Shown here in pieces: positions 56,333-64,000 of a stretch of DNA of 64,000 nt. The stretch is taken from NCBI RefSeq assembly GCF_009363555.1, contig NZ_CP045377.1, forward strand, positions 1 through 64,000, given 5' to 3'. Origin of the DNA: Sulfitobacter sp. THAF37 (GTDB lineage Bacteria > Pseudomonadota > Alphaproteobacteria > Rhodobacterales > Rhodobacteraceae). The notes below the pieces were generated by a model. That model did no database searches. It was not told where the DNA came from and saw only the letters and a program-made list of their open reading frames with translations. The number at the start of each line of letters is the position of its first letter. Position 1 is the stretch's first letter. Made by a program: the position numbers and the translations under genes.

Positions 56333-57237
56333 GCGTTCCGGTACTGGTGATCACCGGCTTTCTCGGCGCGGGAAAGACATCATTGATCAACGCGCTTCTG
56401 CAGTCCGATCACGGGCTGCGCATCGCCGCCATCGTCAACGACTTTGGCGCCATCAACATCGACGCGGCGTTGATTGGCCCATCCGTCGATGGCGTGGTCG
56501 GCCTCAGGAACGGTTGCATCTGTTGTTCATTGCAAGGCGATCTGCTGCGCACGCTCAGGATCGTGCTGCGTCAATCCCCCCCGCCCCAGCTGATCACCGT
56601 CGAAGCCAGCGGCGTCGCCGACCCCTCTGGCATCATTCAGTCCCTGACCGATCCGGCGATCTGGCAGTCCGCACAGCTGCAGACCGTGGTGTGCGTGGTC
56701 GACGCCACCGATGCCCCGCACCGTCAGGACGATCCTCTCTGGCAGGCCCAACTCGGCGGCTCTGACGTGCTCATGCTCGCCAAGACAGACATCGCGGAGG
56801 CAAAGACGCTCCCTGCCCTGCGGTCGAAGCTGGCCGCCAGCTTCAAGCAACCGCTTCTGGATATCTCCGACGGGCTGCCCCTCTCGGCCCTGCTCGGTCT
56901 GCCAGTCGCATCGCGCCGGACGCGTGCCGCGCGCCCGATTTCCGACGATCGCTTTGTCCATGTGGAATGGGAACACGACGCCCCCCTGGCGCTTGACGCC
57001 TTCCAGTCCGTGATGGGAACGCTCGCCCCGTCGCTTTTGCGGGCCAAAGGTTTCGTAAGGTTTCGCGGGCAGACGGATCCGATGCTCTTTCAACTCTCCG
57101 GCACCCGCGCAACGCTTTCGCGCGCCGACAGTGCCCCGGTCTCCGGATGCCAGCTGGTCCTGATCGGACTGCGAGACACGTTCGACCCTGACAAGGCGGT
57201 TTCAGTACTCGACATGCTCAGGGTCCGGGCGGATTGA
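56329..57237 (+). CDS. CobW/G3E-family GTPase metallochaperone
   Basis: The 302-residue protein has Walker A GFLGAGKTSL at residues 9-18, the G3E metal motif GCICCSL (about residues 61-67), Walker B-like ITVEASGVADP and the base-recognition AKTD. C-terminal CobW domain from about residue 205. G3E GTPases load metal into specific enzymes. As the last gene of the operon, overlapping the deacylase, it probably supplies zinc (or another metal) to the M81 peptidase or the amidohydrolase. Metal identity is not visible from sequence. Confidence 0.9.
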   Translation: MSVPVLVITGFLGAGKTSLINALLQSDHGLRIAAIVNDFGAINIDAALIGPSVDGVVGLRNGCICCSLQGDLLRTLRIVLRQSPPPQLITVEASGVADPSGIIQSLTDPAIWQSAQLQTVVCVVDATDAPHRQDDPLWQAQLGGSDVLMLAKTDIAEAKTLPALRSKLAASFKQPLLDISDGLPLSALLGLPVASRRTRAARPISDDRFVHVEWEHDAPLALDAFQSVMGTLAPSLLRAKGFVRFRGQTDPMLFQLSGTRATLSRADSAPVSGCQLVLIGLRDTFDPDKAVSVLDMLRVRAD

Positions 57238-57303
57238 GCGTCGCAAATACGGCACGGTGCGACCGCTGCATTGTTCCCGCACGGTCAACGCGACGGCTGC
57301 GCC

Positions 57304-58254
57304 CTACCCGCGCCAGTCGAAGAATCCCGCGCCGGCGCGCTCCAGCAACCTGCGCGCCATGTCGTGACCCGCTTGGGCGCCGTCCTCGACCGGGCAGCTT
57401 GTGGCGTCGTCCAACGCCTCTGACCCGTCAGGGCGCAGCACCTCACCGCGAAGGTGCAGGGTCCCGCCCTCCAGCATCGCAAGTCCCGCGATGGGCGTCT
57501 CGCAAGAGCCGTCGAGTTCCAGCAGAAACGCACGCTCCGCCGCCAGCCGCTGGCCGGTCGTGGCGTCATGCACCGCCTCCAGCATCTCGGCCACGCGGCT
57601 ATCGTCGATCCGCCGCTCGATCCCGATGGCACCCTGCGCCACGGCGGGCAGCATCGTTTCCGCGTCGATCGCGGTGGCGGGCACGTCGTCCATCATCCGC
57701 AACCGGTTCAGCCCCGCCATGGCCAGGAAGGTCGCCGCCGCCACCCCCTGCTCCAGCTTCATCAGCCGGGTCTGCAGGTTGCCGCGAAACTCCACCACCT
57801 CCAGATCGGGCCGCCGCAGTTTCAGCTGCGCACGCCGCCGCAGGCTGGAGGTGCCGACAACCGTGCCCTCGGGCAGGTCCGCCAATCCCCTGGCGTTGGG
57901 CGAGATGAAGGCGTCGCGCACATCCTCGCGCGGCAGGTAGGTGTCCAGCACCAGCCCGTCGGGCTGAATCGTCGGCATGTCCTTCATCGAATGCACGGCG
58001 ATGTCGATGCCGCCTGACAGCAGTTCCGCCTCGATCTCGCGGGTGAACAGCCCCTTGCCGCCGATCTCCTTCAACGGGCGGTCGATGATCCGGTCGCCGG
58101 TGGTCTTGATCACCACGATGGTAAAGGCCTCAAGCGGCAATTCGAACGCACGCGCCAGCCTTTCGCGGGTCTCCTCCGCCTGCGCGAGCGCCAGCGGCGA
58201 CCCACGGGTTCCGATCTTCAGAGGGTTCAGCGGGGTGGGCAAGGTCTGGGTCAT
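57304..58254 (-). CDS. hemC: Porphobilinogen deaminase (hydroxymethylbilane synthase)
   Basis: The 316-residue enzyme polymerises four porphobilinogens to hydroxymethylbilane in haem synthesis. Visible motifs: [24 protein letters not shown] with the catalytic aspartate, [11 protein letters not shown], and the dipyrromethane-cofactor cysteine in [11 protein letters not shown]. Complete length. It is divergent from hemE with 96 bp between them, the shared haem promoter region. This is an essential gene next to a plasmid-type replication module. Confidence 0.96.
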
Positions 58255-58350
58255 GCTCACTGGTACCGCTGTGGACCCGGACTGACAACTCCTGTATTCG
58301 CACCCCTGAACAGCATGATACCTCAAACATTTCCAGCAAAGAGCACCCCC

Positions 58351-59391
58351 ATGAGCAACACCAAAACCATCCTGCGCGCATTGGCGGGTGAAACACTGCC
58401 GGTGCCGCCGGTCTGGATGATGCGCCAGGCGGGGCGCTACCTGCCCGAGTACAAGGCGACCCGTGCGCAGGCAGGCGATTTCCTGTCCCTGTGCTACAAT
58501 CCCGACCTCGCGGCAGAGGTCACGTTTCAGCCGATCCGCCGCTACGGGTTCGACGCCGCGATCCTCTTTGCGGACATCCTGCTGGTGCCGCAGGCGCTGG
58601 GGGCCGATCTGTGGTTCGTCACCGGTGAGGGGCCGCGCCTGTCGACCGTCACCACCCGCGCGGAGGTCGAGGCGCTGAAACCGGCAGAGGCCATCCACGA
58701 CAAGCTCAGCCCGATCTACGAGACCGTCAAGATCCTGTCCAAGGGCCTGCCCGAGGAGACTACCCTGATCGGTTTCGCCGGGGCGCCCTGGACGGTTGCC
58801 ACCTATATGATTGCAGGTCGCGGCACGCCGGATCAGGGTCCGGCGCATCAGTTGAAAACCCGCGATCGCCCCGCGTTCGAGACACTTATCGACAAGATCA
58901 CCGAGGCGACGATCCTGTACCTCTCCGAGCAGATCAAGGCGGGGGCAGAGGTGGTCAAGATCTTTGACAGCTGGGCCGGGTCGTTGCAGGGCGACGATTT
59001 CGATGCCTTTTCGCTGACGCCGATGCGCCGGATCACAGAGGCGCTGCACGACATGCACCCCGGCGTGCCCGTCATCGCCTTTCCGCGTGGCGCCGGCACC
59101 CGGTACGATGGCGCGCACAAGGCAATCGGGGCGGAATGCATCGCCATTGACGACGGTGTGACGGCAGAATGGGCCGCCGCCCAGGTACAGCCGGACGGCT
59201 GTGTGCAGGGCAACCTGAAATCGACCCACATGGTCACTGGCGGTGATGCGCTGGTGTCCGAGACGCGGCGCATCGTCAAGGCGTTTTCAGGCGGGCCGCA
59301 TATCTTCAACCTCGGTCACGGGATCACCCCGGACGCAGACCCCGAAAATGTCCAGCTGATGATCGACACGCTGCGCGAAGGTCAGCGTTAG
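58351..59391 (+). CDS. hemE: Uroporphyrinogen decarboxylase
   Basis: The 346-residue enzyme decarboxylates the four acetate side chains of uroporphyrinogen III. It begins [20 protein letters not shown] with the substrate-binding arginines and contains [12 protein letters not shown] and [14 protein letters not shown], all diagnostic. Its stop lies nine bases from the end of the convergent replication gene, with no room for a terminator. Confidence 0.97.
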
Positions 59392-59400
59392 AGCCTGTTT

Positions 59401-60171
59401 TCAGGCGATGACCTCGACGCTGCCGACGCTGTCGTCCACCGACTGACACGCCGTCAGTATGGTTTGCGACAGATGGGTCTGCACATAGGCCGCATGAAAC
59501 CGGCTGGGCGCGCGCAGGGTCAGCCGCCCCCCTGCCCTGCCGACCCGTACCAATGCGCGCAGCCAGGCGCCGAACTGCCCCTTGTCCTGCTGGTACAGCA
59601 CCGCCTGCGCCAGCGCCCATTCGTCGCCCGCCCCCATGTCCGGTGGGGTTGCCGCATCGGCCCTGGGGAATGGCACGACCTTTTCCGCCTCAGGGGCCGC
59701 GCTGCCCGCATCGAGCCGAACTTCGAAATCAGAGCCTATCGCGGGCCAGATGCCACGTGTCGCGGTGAGCATCGCGTCGGCATCCAGACCGTAGGTCGTC
59801 ACCCTGCCCCGCGCGCCCTGCCGTTTGACCCGAAACCAGCCCAGACCGCGCAGCTTGGCCATCTCGCGTTTGACGGTGCGTTCGTTGCACGACCAAAGCT
59901 GGGCAATCTCGCGCTGGCCGATACACAATTCGTCACGCCCCCAGTTGTAGCGGGCCGTCAGCAGCGTGATCAGCCGCAGTATCAGCCGCTGATCATGTTT
60001 GTCCAAAGACAGCGCGTGCGCCCCAAGCGCGGTGATCAGGTCATATTTGCGCGTGGCCGCACCGGGCCCCGCCAAGCGTTTCTGGAGCATCCTGCTGCCC
60101 TGCCTCTGTACCGGGATGTAGCCATCCCTTGCCGCCTCGAATCTTCGGGGTCTGTTGCCCCTTTGGGTCAT
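59401..60171 (-). CDS. DnaA-like plasmid replication initiator (Rhodobacterales type)
   Basis: The protein (256 residues from 60171) has a central winged helix-turn-helix (GQREIAQLWSCNERTVKREM, then LRGLGWFRVKRQGARGRVTTYGLD, about residues 85-130) and, after a linker, a C-terminal DnaA domain-I-like module (KGQFGAWLRALVRVG ... LTLRAPSRFHAAYVQ, about 190-235). This is the layout of the DnaA-like initiators that define a Rhodobacterales plasmid type. The start may instead be ATG 60090, which gives the conserved core with a CAGGG seven bases upstream. Divergent from parAB across a 442-bp space that should contain the origin. Confidence 0.85.
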   Translation of the reverse strand: MTQRGNRPRRFEAARDGYIPVQRQGSRMLQKRLAGPGAATRKYDLITALGAHALSLDKHDQRLILRLITLLTARYNWGRDELCIGQREIAQLWSCNERTVKREMAKLRGLGWFRVKRQGARGRVTTYGLDADAMLTATRGIWPAIGSDFEVRLDAGSAAPEAEKVVPFPRADAATPPDMGAGDEWALAQAVLYQQDKGQFGAWLRALVRVGRAGGRLTLRAPSRFHAAYVQTHLSQTILTACQSVDDSVGSVEVIA

Positions 60172-60613
60172 TGATAAAGCGCCAGGTGAAGAAACTCAAC
60201 GCTTTTCCGATCCGTCCTTTGATTTGCGTCCAAAGCGTCGATTCTGTCAAGACCTCCGGTCCGACCTCGGGAATTTCAAACCTGATGAAAAAGAATATCC
60301 TGGTATTAAAGGTATTGGGGGACAGCCAGGGCGTCACTTAATCAGGCGGTTTTGTCCCCTATTCGGCTCTGATCCTGGAAAGCATGTCCCGCAATCCGGC
60401 GGCAGATCGGCTTGCCGGGGCATGCGCCCCTCCGAATCATGAAAACCCAAGGCTTTCTGATTGGGGCGCATATTATTGTAATTTACTTCTTTCGCCAATT
60501 CGGCGTAAATCGGAAAAACATGGGAATTTGCGTCCGGTCGAGGGGAAGATCTGCGGGCACAAAACTGTCCCCGCGGGGACAACAGGCAAAAAAGAACGGA
60601 AAAAGAGGCACTT
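60172..60613. other. Intergenic region with probable replication origin and par control
   Basis: This 442-bp space separates the divergent initiator and parA genes. It is A/T-richer than its surroundings (notably 60280-60320 and 60465-60530), as expected for an origin. Visible elements: ATTAAAGGTATT repeats at about 60305-60316; GGGGAC (60318-60323) and GTCCCC (60354-60359), two inverted half-sites of the par palindrome; an imperfect CGCC-AATTC-GGCG palindrome; and one full palindrome at 60566-60581. No consensus DnaA boxes (TTATCCACA) or regular iterons were found. Confidence 0.5.
60566..60581. other. Candidate partition site (parS-like palindrome), copy 1
   Basis: TGTCCCCGCGGGGACA is a perfect 16-bp palindrome 32 bp before the parA start, suitable both as a centromere site and as an operator for autoregulation of parAB. 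Confidence 0.7.
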
Positions 60614-61918
60614 ATGTTCACACACCATGATCTGGCCCGGTTGCAGGCGCAATCGCTCAAGATGCAGGGTTTCATCCGTCAGCAGACCTTCTCGCCGGAA
60701 AACGAAAAGACGCTGCGCCGGTTTTCCAGCTGGGAGGTCGCGGAGCTGATCTTCAAGGTCAACCAGTCCACCCTGCGCGGACGGCTGGCCGCGGACCCGT
60801 CGCTGCCGCAGGGCACCACCGAAGAAGAAGGTCGCCAGCACTGGTATACGCTGGCAGAAATCAACGAACTGCGGCGCAGGCTGAAGGTGAACCGCAAATC
60901 GCTGATGCCGAAAAGACCGGCGGGCAAGCGCGCCATCCGCGCGGCCATCGCGAACTTCAAGGGCGGTGCGGGCAAATCCACCGTGGCGCTGCACTTTGCC
61001 CATGCCGCGGCGCTGGACGGCTACCGCGTGCTGGTCGTGGACTTTGACCCGCAGGCCACGCTGAGCCATTCCATGGGCCTTAATGACGTGAGCGAGGAAT
61101 TCACCGTCTGGGGCGTCATGGCGCGCGACCTGATCCGCGAGACCGAGCGGATGAATGCCGCCACCCAGGGGGCGGAGACAGGCACCGCCCTGCCCCGCCG
61201 CAAACTGCCCGCCGCGATCACCGACATGGGCCTGGCCGAGCTGCGCGTCACCGACTTCATCAAGCCGACGAACTGGCCGACGATCGACGCCCTGCCCTCC
61301 TGCGCGAATGCGGCGTTCGTTGAATTCGCCAGCGCGCAATACCGGCATCTCAATCCCGAATGGTCGTTCTTTGCCGCGGTGTCACGTTACCTCGACAGCC
61401 TTCCGAACGACGCCTACGATCTGATCCTTTTCGACTGCCCGCCCGCCATCGGCTATCAGTCCATGAACGCGGTCTTTGCCGCCGACGTGCTCTATATCCC
61501 CTCCGGCCCGGGGTATTGGGAATACGATTCCACCACGTCCTTTATCGGGCAGCTGGCCGAGGCGCTGGAAGACCTGGAGCGGTTCGGCAGCTCTGTCCCC
61601 GCGGGGACGCTGTCCTTGCCCAAGGTGTTCTCCGATGTCCGCTTCCTGCTGACCCGGTTCGAAAGCAACAACGAATTGCACCGCGCGATGCAGCAGGCAT
61701 TCGGCAAGGTTTTTGGCGACAGACTGGCCCAACATCCAATCGAGATGACCCGCGCGGTCGAGCAATCCGGCCGTTTCCTGTCATCCATCTACGAGACGGA
61801 TTATCGCGACATGACACGCGAAACCTGGCGTCGGGCGCGAACATCGTTCGACCAGGCCTATGACGAATTCAAGGGCCACCTGATTGCCGCCTGGGACCAA
61901 CTGGAGGATGAGGCATGA
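60614..61918 (+). CDS. parA: ParA/RepA-type partition ATPase
   Basis: The 434-residue protein has an N-terminal extension of about 105 residues with a MerR/HTH-like segment (RFSSWEVAELIFKVNQSTLRG), as in type Ia plasmid ParA proteins that repress their own operon. The deviant Walker ATPase follows: ANFKGGAGKSTVALHFA (about residues 113-129), VVDFDPQATLS and DLILFDCPP. It segregates the replicon with ParB. ParB starts within its stop (ATGA). One copy of the par palindrome is embedded in the gene, encoding VPAGT at residues 328-332. Confidence 0.94.
   Translation: MFTHHDLARLQAQSLKMQGFIRQQTFSPENEKTLRRFSSWEVAELIFKVNQSTLRGRLAADPSLPQGTTEEEGRQHWYTLAEINELRRRLKVNRKSLMPKRPAGKRAIRAAIANFKGGAGKSTVALHFAHAAALDGYRVLVVDFDPQATLSHSMGLNDVSEEFTVWGVMARDLIRETERMNAATQGAETGTALPRRKLPAAITDMGLAELRVTDFIKPTNWPTIDALPSCANAAFVEFASAQYRHLNPEWSFFAAVSRYLDSLPNDAYDLILFDCPPAIGYQSMNAVFAADVLYIPSGPGYWEYDSTTSFIGQLAEALEDLERFGSSVPAGTLSLPKVFSDVRFLLTRFESNNELHRAMQQAFGKVFGDRLAQHPIEMTRAVEQSGRFLSSIYETDYRDMTRETWRRARTSFDQAYDEFKGHLIAAWDQLEDEA
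61595..61608. other. Candidate partition site, copy 2 (inside parA)
   Basis: GTCCCCGCGGGGAC, identical to the core of copy 1, lies within parA and is read as Val-Pro-Ala-Gly-Thr. Confidence 0.65.
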
Positions 61919-62991
61919 GCAAGAAGAAACGCGTATTCGACATCAACTTTGACGACGTGGAAATCGACCCGCCCGCCGATGTCCCCGCGGGGACGGAAGC
62001 GCGGCGCGGGCCGATGGCCTCCGCGATTTCCGAGAATGCGGAGGCGCTGGCCAGCCGGCAGTCGGCAGAGGCCGCGATCCGGGCGGAGAACGATGCGCTG
62101 GCGCATGAACATGTCCGGCTCAAACGGGCAGGGCTGATCACCGACATGATCCCGCTGGAGAGGGTCCTGACCGGCAAGCTGACCCGGGACCGCGTGCCGG
62201 GCCGCGACCCCGAGATCGAGGAGTTGAAGAATTCGATCCGCGAGATCGGCCTATCGAATCCGATCCGGGTGGAGCCGGTGGGCGATGACTACGAGCTGAT
62301 CCAGGGGTTCCGGCGGGTCACGGCCTATCGCGAATTGTTCGAGGAAACCGGCGATGACCGCTTTGCCCGTATCCCCGCGGGGATCAACGCGCGGGGCGAG
62401 GATATGCTGCGTCTCTACCGGCGGATGGTGGACGAAAACATGGTCCGGCGGGGGGTGTCCTTTGGCGAGATGGCGCAGCTTGCGCTGAACTATCATCTGC
62501 AGGACCCCAATGTGCAAACCTATGACGAAGCGGTCGAGCTGCTCTATGCATCCGCCGCGCGGCAGAAGCGGAACTACATCAAGCATTTCGTCCGCCTGTT
62601 GGTGGCCGCCGATGGGGCGCTGAAATTCATCGACGCGATCCCGCGGGCGACCGGCCTGTCGGTGGTCAAGAAGCTGGACGAGCATCCCGGCGGGGCCAAG
62701 CTGCTGCGGGAGATGCTGGCAGAAGAGGAAGGCCGCACCGCCGAGGATGAGCAGGCGGTTCTGTCCGCCTTTCTGGCGCGCGTTGTGCGCACCGCCAAGG
62801 GCAAGGTCCGCCGTCCGCCCGCGCGGCAGGCCAAGACCACCTTTCGCCTCAACCGGCCCGAGGGCGAGGCGAAGTGCACGGTGGCCGACGGACGCGTGGA
62901 GCTCAAGCTGGAGCGTGACTTCAGCGGCGTCGAGCGCAAGCGTCTGGAAGCTGCGGTCGATGCATTCCTGACCGCGCTGGACGAGGGCTGA
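61915..62991 (+). CDS. parB: ParB/RepB-type partition protein
   Basis: The 358-residue centromere-binding protein has a ParB/Srx N-terminal domain (REIGLSNPIRVEPVG; GFRRVTAYREL, the GxRR CTP/phosphate motif; about residues 95-145), a central helix-turn-helix (RRGVSFGEMAQLALNYHLQD, about 180-200, and SAARQKRNYIKHFVRLL) and a C-terminal dimerisation domain. It should bind the local palindromes. Two of these lie within its own gene, encoding VPAGT at residues 23-27 and IPAGI at 153-157. Overlaps parA by four bases. Confidence 0.94.
   Translation: MSKKKRVFDINFDDVEIDPPADVPAGTEARRGPMASAISENAEALASRQSAEAAIRAENDALAHEHVRLKRAGLITDMIPLERVLTGKLTRDRVPGRDPEIEELKNSIREIGLSNPIRVEPVGDDYELIQGFRRVTAYRELFEETGDDRFARIPAGINARGEDMLRLYRRMVDENMVRRGVSFGEMAQLALNYHLQDPNVQTYDEAVELLYASAARQKRNYIKHFVRLLVAADGALKFIDAIPRATGLSVVKKLDEHPGGAKLLREMLAEEEGRTAEDEQAVLSAFLARVVRTAKGKVRRPPARQAKTTFRLNRPEGEAKCTVADGRVELKLERDFSGVERKRLEAAVDAFLTALDEG
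61981..61994. other. Candidate partition site, copy 3 (inside parB)
   Basis: GTCCCCGCGGGGAC lies near the start of parB and is read in the same frame as copy 2 (Val-Pro-Ala-Gly-Thr). Confidence 0.65.
62371..62384. other. Candidate partition site, symmetric variant (inside parB)
   Basis: ATCCCCGCGGGGAT differs from the other copies at both outer arms in a compensating way (G to A at one end region, C to T at the other), so the dyad symmetry is kept. It is read as Ile-Pro-Ala-Gly-Ile. Confidence 0.5.
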
Positions 62992-63006
62992 AGGTCGTCC
63001 TGGCCT

Positions 63007-63024
63007 CTGTCCCCGCGGGGACAG
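63007..63024. other. Candidate partition site, copy 5 (after parB)
   Basis: CTGTCCCCGCGGGGACAG is the longest copy, a perfect 18-bp palindrome starting 16 bp after the parB stop. It could also form a terminator-like hairpin, but no T-run follows at once. Confidence 0.7.
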
Positions 63025-63197
63025 GGGCGTTAATCTATAGATATTTCAAATGGTTATACGAAATTCTCATTTTTTGCGCTGATCGGGCTGCAAAAACCCT
63101 CGCAGAATGCATCTTCGACGTCCATCAGGGCAGGCGTGGTCGGGCGCCCTTGCGGCGCAGTCTCTAATCCGCAGGTTAGGGCAGGGTGGCGCGCCGG

Positions 63198-63902
63198 TCA
63201 GATGTCGGCGCGGTATCGGGCGCGGTCGGCATTCATCTGATCCCGCCAGTCCCTGCGCAGGCGATCCACCGACTGCGGAAAGGTCTGGGTCAGGATCTCG
63301 GCTGTCAGCATCCGCTCGGTCCGAAAGTACCGGAAGGCACCGCGCAGCTCGCACCAGGCGGCCAGAATGCGGCCCGCATCGCGATAGCCCAGCAGGATCG
63401 GCCAGACAGTGCGGCGGGTTTCGCGCCCCTGTTCGTCGCGATAGGTCATGGCGATCTTGGCCCGGCCCCGGATGGCATCGCGGATCGCGGTGGCATCCAG
63501 CGTCTCGGCGGGCGGCGGCACCGGGGCCACATCGGTCGCGGGCTGATAGAAGAAGGTCCGCGTTTCCGGTGGCGCGACCGCTTCGAGCCGGGCCAGCAAC
63601 GCCTCTGCAGCGCGGGCCAGGCCAGGGTCCCCGCGGGTCCGGACCCATTGCGCGCCCAGCACCGCCGCCTCGATCTCCTCGGCCTTGAGCATCAGCGGGG
63701 GCATGTGAAAACCGCCCTCCAGCACATAGCCCACACCGGCCTCCCCGGTGATCGGCACCCGTTGCGCCATCAGCGCGGCGATGTCGCGGTAGACGGTCCG
63801 GCGCGACACTTCAAGCTCGGCGGCGATGCGGCTGGCGGCGATCGGCCCGCGGGCGCGTCGCAGGATTTCGATGATTTCGAACAGACGGTCGGCGCGGCGC
63901 AT
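63198..63902 (-). CDS. WYL-domain DeoR/YafY-type transcriptional regulator
   Basis: The 234-residue protein has an N-terminal helix-turn-helix (MRRADRLFEIIEILRR; ASRIAAELEVSRRTVYRDIA, about residues 1-45) and a C-terminal WYL-like domain with ILAAWCELRGAFRYFRTERM, the ligand-binding arginine region. ATG 63902 has GGAG five bases upstream. Regulators of this type usually repress a divergent neighbour; the start of that gene lies beyond the right edge. A palindrome at 63925-63949 is the likely operator. Confidence 0.9.
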   Translation of the reverse strand: MRRADRLFEIIEILRRARGPIAASRIAAELEVSRRTVYRDIAALMAQRVPITGEAGVGYVLEGGFHMPPLMLKAEEIEAAVLGAQWVRTRGDPGLARAAEALLARLEAVAPPETRTFFYQPATDVAPVPPPAETLDATAIRDAIRGRAKIAMTYRDEQGRETRRTVWPILLGYRDAGRILAAWCELRGAFRYFRTERMLTAEILTQTFPQSVDRLRRDWRDQMNADRARYRADI

Positions 63903-63924
63903 TGGGGCTCCTTTTAACGGCAGG

Positions 63925-63949
63925 GGCAGCATAGTGACAGGATGCTGCC
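63925..63949. promoter_or_regulatory. Inverted repeat upstream of the WYL regulator
   Basis: GGCAGCAT and ATGCTGCC form perfect 8-bp arms with a 9-bp spacer, 22 bp before the regulator start, facing an unseen divergent gene. A TGTCAGCATGGTGCC segment just to the right repeats part of the motif. Confidence 0.55.
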
Positions 63950-64000
63950 ACCACGCTGTCAGCATGGTGCCGCTAGACTGGCTTTGTACTCAACAGGAAA

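Follow-up and report, generated by a model that had tools for sequence, protein, structure and literature searches.

According to passages of PMC9040568, RepABC plasmids of the Rhodobacterales carry multiple parS sites in or near the rep/par operon, also inside genes, and its authors propose selection for parS within genes. Part of PMC7383237 attributes site choice by ParB and Noc to four interface residues, and an entry in Table 1 of PMC9025767 types plasmid pDSM14862_b of Sulfitobacter indolifex as DnaA-like-I. Here we describe the par locus in the first 64,000 bases (the window) of a 98,806-bp contig of Sulfitobacter sp. THAF37, whose genome comprises 8 contigs. The window belongs to a plasmid of 98.8 kb that has a parAB operon and a replication gene of DnaA-like type. 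A short palindrome recurs through this operon, and its copies are very probably cognate parS sites, forming a distributed centromere, because their conservation among related loci is stereotyped and because palindrome and ParB covary. An earlier reading of the window alone (the original prediction) had proposed a distributed parS for this ParB, and the comparison of sequences strongly supports it.

The exact 14-mer GTCCCCGCGGGGAC is present in four copies in the window, at 60567, 61595, 61981 and 63009, and a symmetric variant, ATCCCCGCGGGGAT, lies at 62371; with its flanks the first copy forms a palindrome of 16 bp (60566-60581), and the last copy one of 18 bp (63007-63024). A search of the window thus reproduced the positions and the two extensions given in the original prediction, as well as its statement that the remainder holds no full copy: no other copy with 0 or 1 mismatch occurs elsewhere in the 64 kb, and the single 2-mismatch match, at 63627, is non-palindromic. 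The predicted sites and the two genes through which they are spread are listed in order, no strand being assigned to a palindrome.

60566..60581, no strand: predicted parS site 1, TGTCCCCGCGGGGACA, upstream of parA; its 14-mer, at 60567, ends 33 bp before the parA start.
60614..61918, plus strand: parA, encoding a 434-aa ATPase in which about 110 residues precede the ATPase domain.
61595..61608, no strand: predicted parS site 2, inside parA, encoding VPAGT, its centre 313 nt before the parB start.
61915..62991, plus strand: parB, encoding 358 aa with a ParB N-terminal domain and a helix-turn-helix; R216 and Q217 start the presumed recognition helix.
61981..61994, no strand: predicted parS site 3, at the 5' end of parB, encoding VPAGT in a poorly conserved N-terminal stretch.
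62371..62384, no strand: variant palindrome, judged to follow merely from the codons for IPAG in ParB and not to be parS.
63007..63024, no strand: predicted parS site 4, CTGTCCCCGCGGGGACAG, just downstream of parB.

The original prediction had counted the variant as a fifth member of the set. We left it out because the DNA at that place is palindromic in only 10 of the 75 relatives in which the IPAG peptide was found (44 different sequences in all), and on this comparison it is probably not a parS site. The spacing of the four exact sites (60567-63022) is mirror-symmetric, at 1028, 386 and 1028 bp, a layout that is not general among relatives.

Conservation was assessed in 121 related par loci, namely 11 from plasmid records (of 587 records with a ParB match), the best 30 from genomes and the best 80 of 427 loci from named assemblies, a set with some duplicates between sources and in which close relatives are favoured. 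The main palindrome, built around CCCCGCGGGG, was of the form GT..AC (code A, GTCCCCGCGGGGAC) in 86 loci and TT..AA (code B, TTCCCCGCGGGGAA) in 28, so that the comparison with other par loci suggested in the original prediction yielded a palindrome of one of the two main codes in 114 of 121. It was of the form GG..CC in one locus, which has TGTCCC-type sites with 1-2 mismatches, and absent from six, which have one-mismatch CTTCCCCGCGGGGAAG sites, including at -313 and at +64 to +76.

Placement was counted in the 100 loci that have distinct ParBs and a main code (73 code A, 27 code B). Among code-A loci a site was found upstream of parA in 51 of 73, inside parA at -340 to -280 from the parB start (about -313) in 64, at the 5' end of parB in 36 and no more than 400 nt past the end of parB in 35; among the 27 code-B loci, 23 likewise have a site at the 5' end of parB. 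At the -313 place, ParA reads VPAGT in 51 code-A loci (of at most 73) and FPTGK, from TTCCCCACGGGGAA, in 15 code-B loci (of at most 27), and at the 5' end of parB the code-A proteins with a site read VPAGT and six aligned code-B proteins read FPAG[KN]. Because the encoded peptide switches with the code, from VPAGT to FPAG[KN] or FPTGK, it is the DNA and not the peptide that is kept at the intragenic sites. Beyond the 14-mer that was searched for, T occupies position 8 in 559 of 626 par-locus half-sites, and C accounts for all or nearly all the rest.

Some relatives have many more sites. Four loci hold nine to 16 copies around parAB, namely L017 (16) and L143 (15) of Alloyangia pacifica, and L019 and L020. 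In plasmids of Thalassococcus, Roseobacter and Tateyamaria the copies continue into adjoining genes for bchO and magnesium chelatase subunit D, and in loci L013, L014 and L019 sites lie beside bch genes.

Across the 100 distinct ParBs with a main code, the alignment column most informative about the site code was residue 216, which is R in all 73 code-A proteins, K in all 10 of GTT type and Y in all 17 of CTT type. A close ParB is present, and all three exact sequences are absent, in 27 further genomes; we added the par loci of 20 of these and in the resulting 135 distinct ParBs sought near-palindromes with no preset sequence, requiring at least two per locus and taking their outer five bases as the key. 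Classed by residues 216-217, RQ went with key TGTCC in 63 of 80 loci, YQ with CTTCC in 26 of 26, KQ with GTTCC in 11 of 11, YT with CTTAC in 6 of 6, YS with CTTAT in 3 of 6 and PQ with TTTCC in 5 of 5; a single PV locus gave no key at the two-copy criterion, with one perfect TTTACCCATGGGTAAA present. The only second key within any class was a masked run of N. Residue 216 as R, K, Y or P therefore goes with outer bases TGT, GTT, CTT or TTT, and the fourth base is C where residue 217 is Q and A where it is S or T. The ParB tree has P216 at two separate places, with TTT in both (TTTCC and TTTACCCATGGGTAAA).

The covariation suggests, with fair probability, that residues 216-217 constitute a recognition code. 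If so, the site forms by residue 216 would be TGTCCCCGCGGGGACA for R, GTTCCCCGCGGGGAAC for K, CTTCCCCGCGGGGAAG for Y and TTTCCCCGCGGGGAAA for P, other residues perhaps also mattering; partition specificity would be predictable from sequence, and the code may set plasmid compatibility. Extending it to two RepABC RepB proteins failed, the alignment being too poor at the recognition helix. In plasmid pDSM14862_d of S. indolifex (L296; DnaA-like-II), the code positions of ParB are occupied by K-M, and just after parB comes one 18-bp palindrome, around GTAACCCATGGGTTAC, which is possibly the code of the second DnaA-like group.

ParA matches AAA_31 (1.3e-24) and CbiA from residue 111 in a profile search, and the RepA model TIGR03453 at 4.5e-60, yet below that model's cut-off; ParB matches ParB_N at 2.5e-5 with 24.7 bits, slightly below the Pfam cut-off of 26.3. 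G131, R133 and R134 are invariant in the alignment of relatives and form a GxRR motif, which we take to be the cytidine triphosphate (CTP)-binding motif of ParB. A structure model of ParB (mean predicted local distance difference test score, pLDDT, 81; predicted template modelling score, pTM, 0.48) has helices at 183-196, 203-210 and 216-232, such that R216 would be the first residue of the presumed recognition helix, with pLDDT below 50 at residues 20-27, around the peptide of site 3. Foldseek with this model returned ParB and Noc chains as best matches (E 1e-7 to 1e-4). The locus thus combines a long ParA ATPase with an N-terminal extension (434 aa, domain from residue 111), a ParB in which an N-terminal GxRR domain is followed by a helix-turn-helix, and an operon-conserved palindromic site that covaries with ParB, features which, along with binding of the site by ParB and plasmid instability upon its deletion, would define a type Ia ParABS system, and we class the locus as a probable member.

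The full explanation, that the four sites are the parS of this type Ia system and that ParB reads them as outlined, we consider very likely on the comparative evidence. Four parS would be distributed along the par operon itself, within 2.46 kb, and ParB dimers would read the two half-sites of each, R216 fixing the outer TGT and Q217 the C at the fourth base. Analogy with ParB, KorB and Noc suggests that the protein, once bound, would be loaded as a CTP clamp and spread, that ParA would move it, and that the site before parA would serve to repress the operon as well.

In the whole genome of the window's host (G000), an exact-match search found 11 copies of the 14-mer, four in the window and seven on the 3.45-Mb contig C1.

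C1, positions 167405, 255812, 435184, 1937060, 2097591, 2756652 and 3306161: the seven chromosomal copies (L001-L007).

Some of these lie in reading frames and some just after stop codons, coding status having been judged from frames (for one, from orthologues) where a small gene finder chose antisense frames. The palindrome is thus not confined to parAB; the original prediction had named many copies spread away from parAB as evidence that would undermine it, and this was in part found, in these seven. Its distinction from the chromosomal parS stands, TGTTTCACGTGAAACA occurring twice on C1.

A survey covered 292 genomes of the order, an even sample of a larger group, a close ParB being a match at E 1e-60 or better. 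The 14-mer occurred in 38 of them, of which 36 were among the 94 with a close ParB, and the 198 genomes without one held two copies in all. Of the 36 code-A genomes whose ParB is close, at least 11 had copies off the par contig, versus 2 of the 198 without a close ParB (p = 1.7e-8, uncorrected for kinship). This off-contig comparison is cleaner than Fisher tests on all copies, which in part only repeat that the sites are found in par loci. Numbers were highest, par-locus copies included, in G259 (102), G174 (89), G181 (28) and G285 (23); the ParB of G259 is close to that of a Tateyamaria omphalii plasmid with bch genes, and those of G181 and G285 are nearest Leisingera aquaemixtae in the tree. 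The 12-mer core TCCCCGCGGGGA has 430 copies in 14 genomes with ParB (par-locus copies included), and 407 of these have the outer bases of the genome's commonest code (which in G237 is not the code of its ParB).

The dispersed copies resemble those of par loci beyond the searched sequence. A sample of 44 dispersed copies, sites shared by G181 and G285 being counted apart, had T at position 8 in 78 of its 88 half-sites, and C made up all or nearly all the rest. Off the par contig the copies fit residue 216 in 14 of the 15 genomes read (G161 and G177 were not read), G237 being the exception: GT..AC with R216 in G000, G031, G039, G066, G112, G117, G174, G181, G203, G259 and G285, GTT with K216 in G209, and CTT with Y216 in G272 and G132. 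From this agreement it seems rather more probable than any other reader that the same plasmid ParB reads the chromosomal copies. That a plasmid ParB has gained a second, chromosome-wide site set and acts as a host nucleoid, tethering or regulatory factor is a more tentative proposal, which we regard as somewhat doubtful; under it, up to tens of code-matched parS per chromosome would have arisen by point substitution, in and between genes, and the chromosomal sites could outlast the plasmid.

Several observations weigh against the parS explanation. The seven residue classes need six changes on a quick ParB tree, which is the minimum, and because each class is almost a single clade, about six events underlie the covariation; at the two-copy criterion, 17 of 80 RQ loci, 3 of 6 YS loci and the single PV locus fell below two copies. 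The pTM of the ParB model is low, as given above, and the query-normalised TM-scores of the Foldseek matches were about 0.2. Seven exact copies further to those of the plasmid lie on the host chromosome. Other results weigh against the reading of chromosomal copies by this ParB. Dispersal was seen in at least 11 of 36 code-A genomes, every copy being on the par contig in 12 of 36. G237 has 58 CTT (CTTCCCCGCGGGGAAG) copies, and the only close ParB found there has K216 with GTT sites; this genome also has a distant, interrupted ParB homologue. G286 has 5 CTT copies and no ParB match, a single copy is present in each of G050, G277, G219 and G248, which lack a close ParB, and T runs follow some of the intergenic copies of G259 and G237. 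The copies of G237, G286 and the single-copy genomes could be relics of lost plasmids or belong to another reader.

The alternative that retains most weight, though it is unlikely, concerns the chromosomal copies only and makes them intrinsic terminators, or sites of another regulator that share the sequence, rather than ParB sites. The T runs favour it, as do the copies of G286, which lack a ParB match, and those of G237, which are at odds with its K216/GTT protein. Yet the copies fit the ParB residue in nearly every genome read, several lie inside genes, and their extended consensus is that of the par loci. No terminator-like match falls on the sites of the window (3 terminators found in the par region versus 2.5 expected). 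An Rfam RNA in 57000-64000 is rejected, with 0 hits. Close doublets were observed, five in G259 (L236 and L269-L272 among the listed loci), with starts 22-30 bp apart, and one in G237 (L268); some copies at doublet loci are followed by T runs, and one copy lies just before a likely start codon.

We regard it as improbable that a mobile palindrome spread by insertion and was then picked up by the plasmid. Copy number is sharply uneven among congeners (102 in G259 versus 0 in G169 and G230), and the doublets would suit such a process, but at 4 of 4 tested sites (three in G259, one in G000) congeners without the palindrome align across without a gap, as where VPAGTIG is matched by VPAGEIG and VPAAEIG. 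At two of the G259 sites, which are intergenic, the similarity is weak, and one of them was compared with a single congener. The G000 comparison used orthologues, and one of the five (L189) was left out. G181 and G285 share four of five palindromes, a single base separating them at the fifth, and their loci are 92-95% identical over four compared pairs; no flank shared by the chromosomal copies was found beyond about 18 bp. Insertion was rejected on these alignments and the single-base difference. The simplest account, because of the gap-free alignments, is that the chromosomal copies arose by point substitution followed by selection or drift; conversion of tiny tracts is also possible.

The distribution of the copies along the chromosome was measured with C1 taken as a closed circle and the chromosomal parS as its origin. 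The origin-proximal two thirds hold 15 of 16 C1 sites in G181 and 11 of 11 in G285. One C1 site of the window's host lies at 0.97 of the way to the terminus, and avoidance of the terminus, which would point to a Noc-like role, was rejected as a general rule, being seen in G181 and G285 and not in the window's host or G259.

Very improbable, to return to the par locus, is that the palindromes there are operators alone, repressor or co-repressor sites of the par operon and its neighbours read by ParB or ParA, with no centromere. The site before parA, which recurs in most code-A loci, is placed for such a role, and part of PMC11790492 describes how the ParB relative KorB represses promoters at distances of up to 1.5 kb. 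Many copies inside parA, inside parB and downstream are in no place for a simple promoter operator, however, and the arrays around parAB in some relatives, such as those of 16 and 15 copies, speak against it as well. The original prediction had set the centromere against an ordinary operator, which is too strong, given that the site at 60567 ends so near the parA start; that site may serve as both.

Scarcely credible is a codon by-product, in which codon preference within a favoured VPAG peptide would create the palindrome. Copies that can be read as VPAGT, CPRGD or SPRGQ are indeed many, both in par genes and on chromosomes. Against this, the 12-mer occurs 9-103 times in each of the 14 genomes with a close ParB and once in total in 11 congeneric genomes without one, and this near-absence from ParB-free congeners led us to reject the idea; the core was not found in four congeners of the window's host without a ParB match (G002, G107, G166 and G270). 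The peptide also switches with the code, T at position 8 is kept in both par-locus and dispersed half-sites, and intergenic copies are common (in G259, 11 of a sample of 15, by a small gene finder). Chance origin is rejected, since about 0.0009 (Markov-2) or 0.0006 (Markov-5) exact 14-mers were expected in the window, where the count of six matches with at most 2 mismatches was equalled in 1 of 100 shuffles.

Beside parAB lies a divergent gene.

59401..60171, minus strand: DnaA-like replication initiator, divergent from parAB, with a DnaA_N match at 1.7e-4, below the Pfam cut-off.

Genes at the matching place beside parAB in relatives are annotated as DnaA N-terminal domain proteins, and gene content together with the layout of relatives bears out the original assignment to the DnaA-like plasmids of the Rhodobacterales. 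Next to the replication module, the interval 57304-59391 holds hemE (URO-D, 8e-114) and, on the opposite strand, a frame that is presumably hemC-like. No photosynthesis genes were found among ten further frames of the window scanned against Pfam.

Literature searches, whose coverage included PMC4572655, PMC3832669, PMC4148982, PMC9426580, PMC9044938, PMC3910702, PMC13386836, PMC6052148 and PMC6739100 besides the papers cited here, returned no printed account of the palindrome, the two-residue code or the matching chromosomal sites, and the 14-mer as one word was not found in the main texts searched; searches for DnaA-like plasmids together with a palindrome led to passages on RepABC sites only. 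Petersen 2011, reportedly the founding paper on DnaA-like plasmids, may print the palindrome. What is described here is a likely centromere for the DnaA-like plasmids of marine Rhodobacterales, photosynthesis plasmids included, and the chromosomal copies raise the question whether a plasmid partition protein can recruit the host chromosome, binding plasmid and host together.

Within the DnaA-like plasmids, pDSM14862_b shows the same layout as the window, and the divergence of the DnaA-like Rep gene from parAB is that of DnaA-like I plasmids, which makes the window a candidate for group I, with group II as the alternative. Among better-known systems, Noc and its NBS sites in Bacillus subtilis offer a likeness to the chromosomal copies, Noc being related to ParB and having, as given in part of PMC4331003, about 70 palindromic sites distributed round the chromosome. 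Noc sites avoid the terminus, whereas here only G181 and G285 show avoidance, and the ParB of the window is plasmid-borne.

KorB of RK2 also has a partition role. Its action at OB is alike in that a ParB-type CTPase clamp is loaded at plasmid operators and acts at a distance, as described in part of PMC11790492, and differs in that the family of the window has sites inside the par genes and matching sites on host chromosomes.

The sites themselves resemble the parS of RepABC plasmids, which, in passages of PMC9040568 and PMC5613091, are short GC-centred palindromes with a code for each compatibility group, some of them within coding genes. The GTT code GTTCCCCGCGGGGAAC of the window's ParB family (K216) fits the consensus GTTNNNNGCNNNNAAC printed in part of PMC9040568, but the sites of the window, which begin TGT, do not. 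Nor is there a repA-repB-repC operon: the Rep gene is divergent and has a weak match to DnaA_N, and the ParB is a weak relative of RepB (TIGR03454, 1.6e-7, far below the cut-off). In the family of the window, moreover, sites inside parA and parB are usual. With multiple and intragenic parS known in RepABC plasmids, the centromere itself would be a new case of a known kind.

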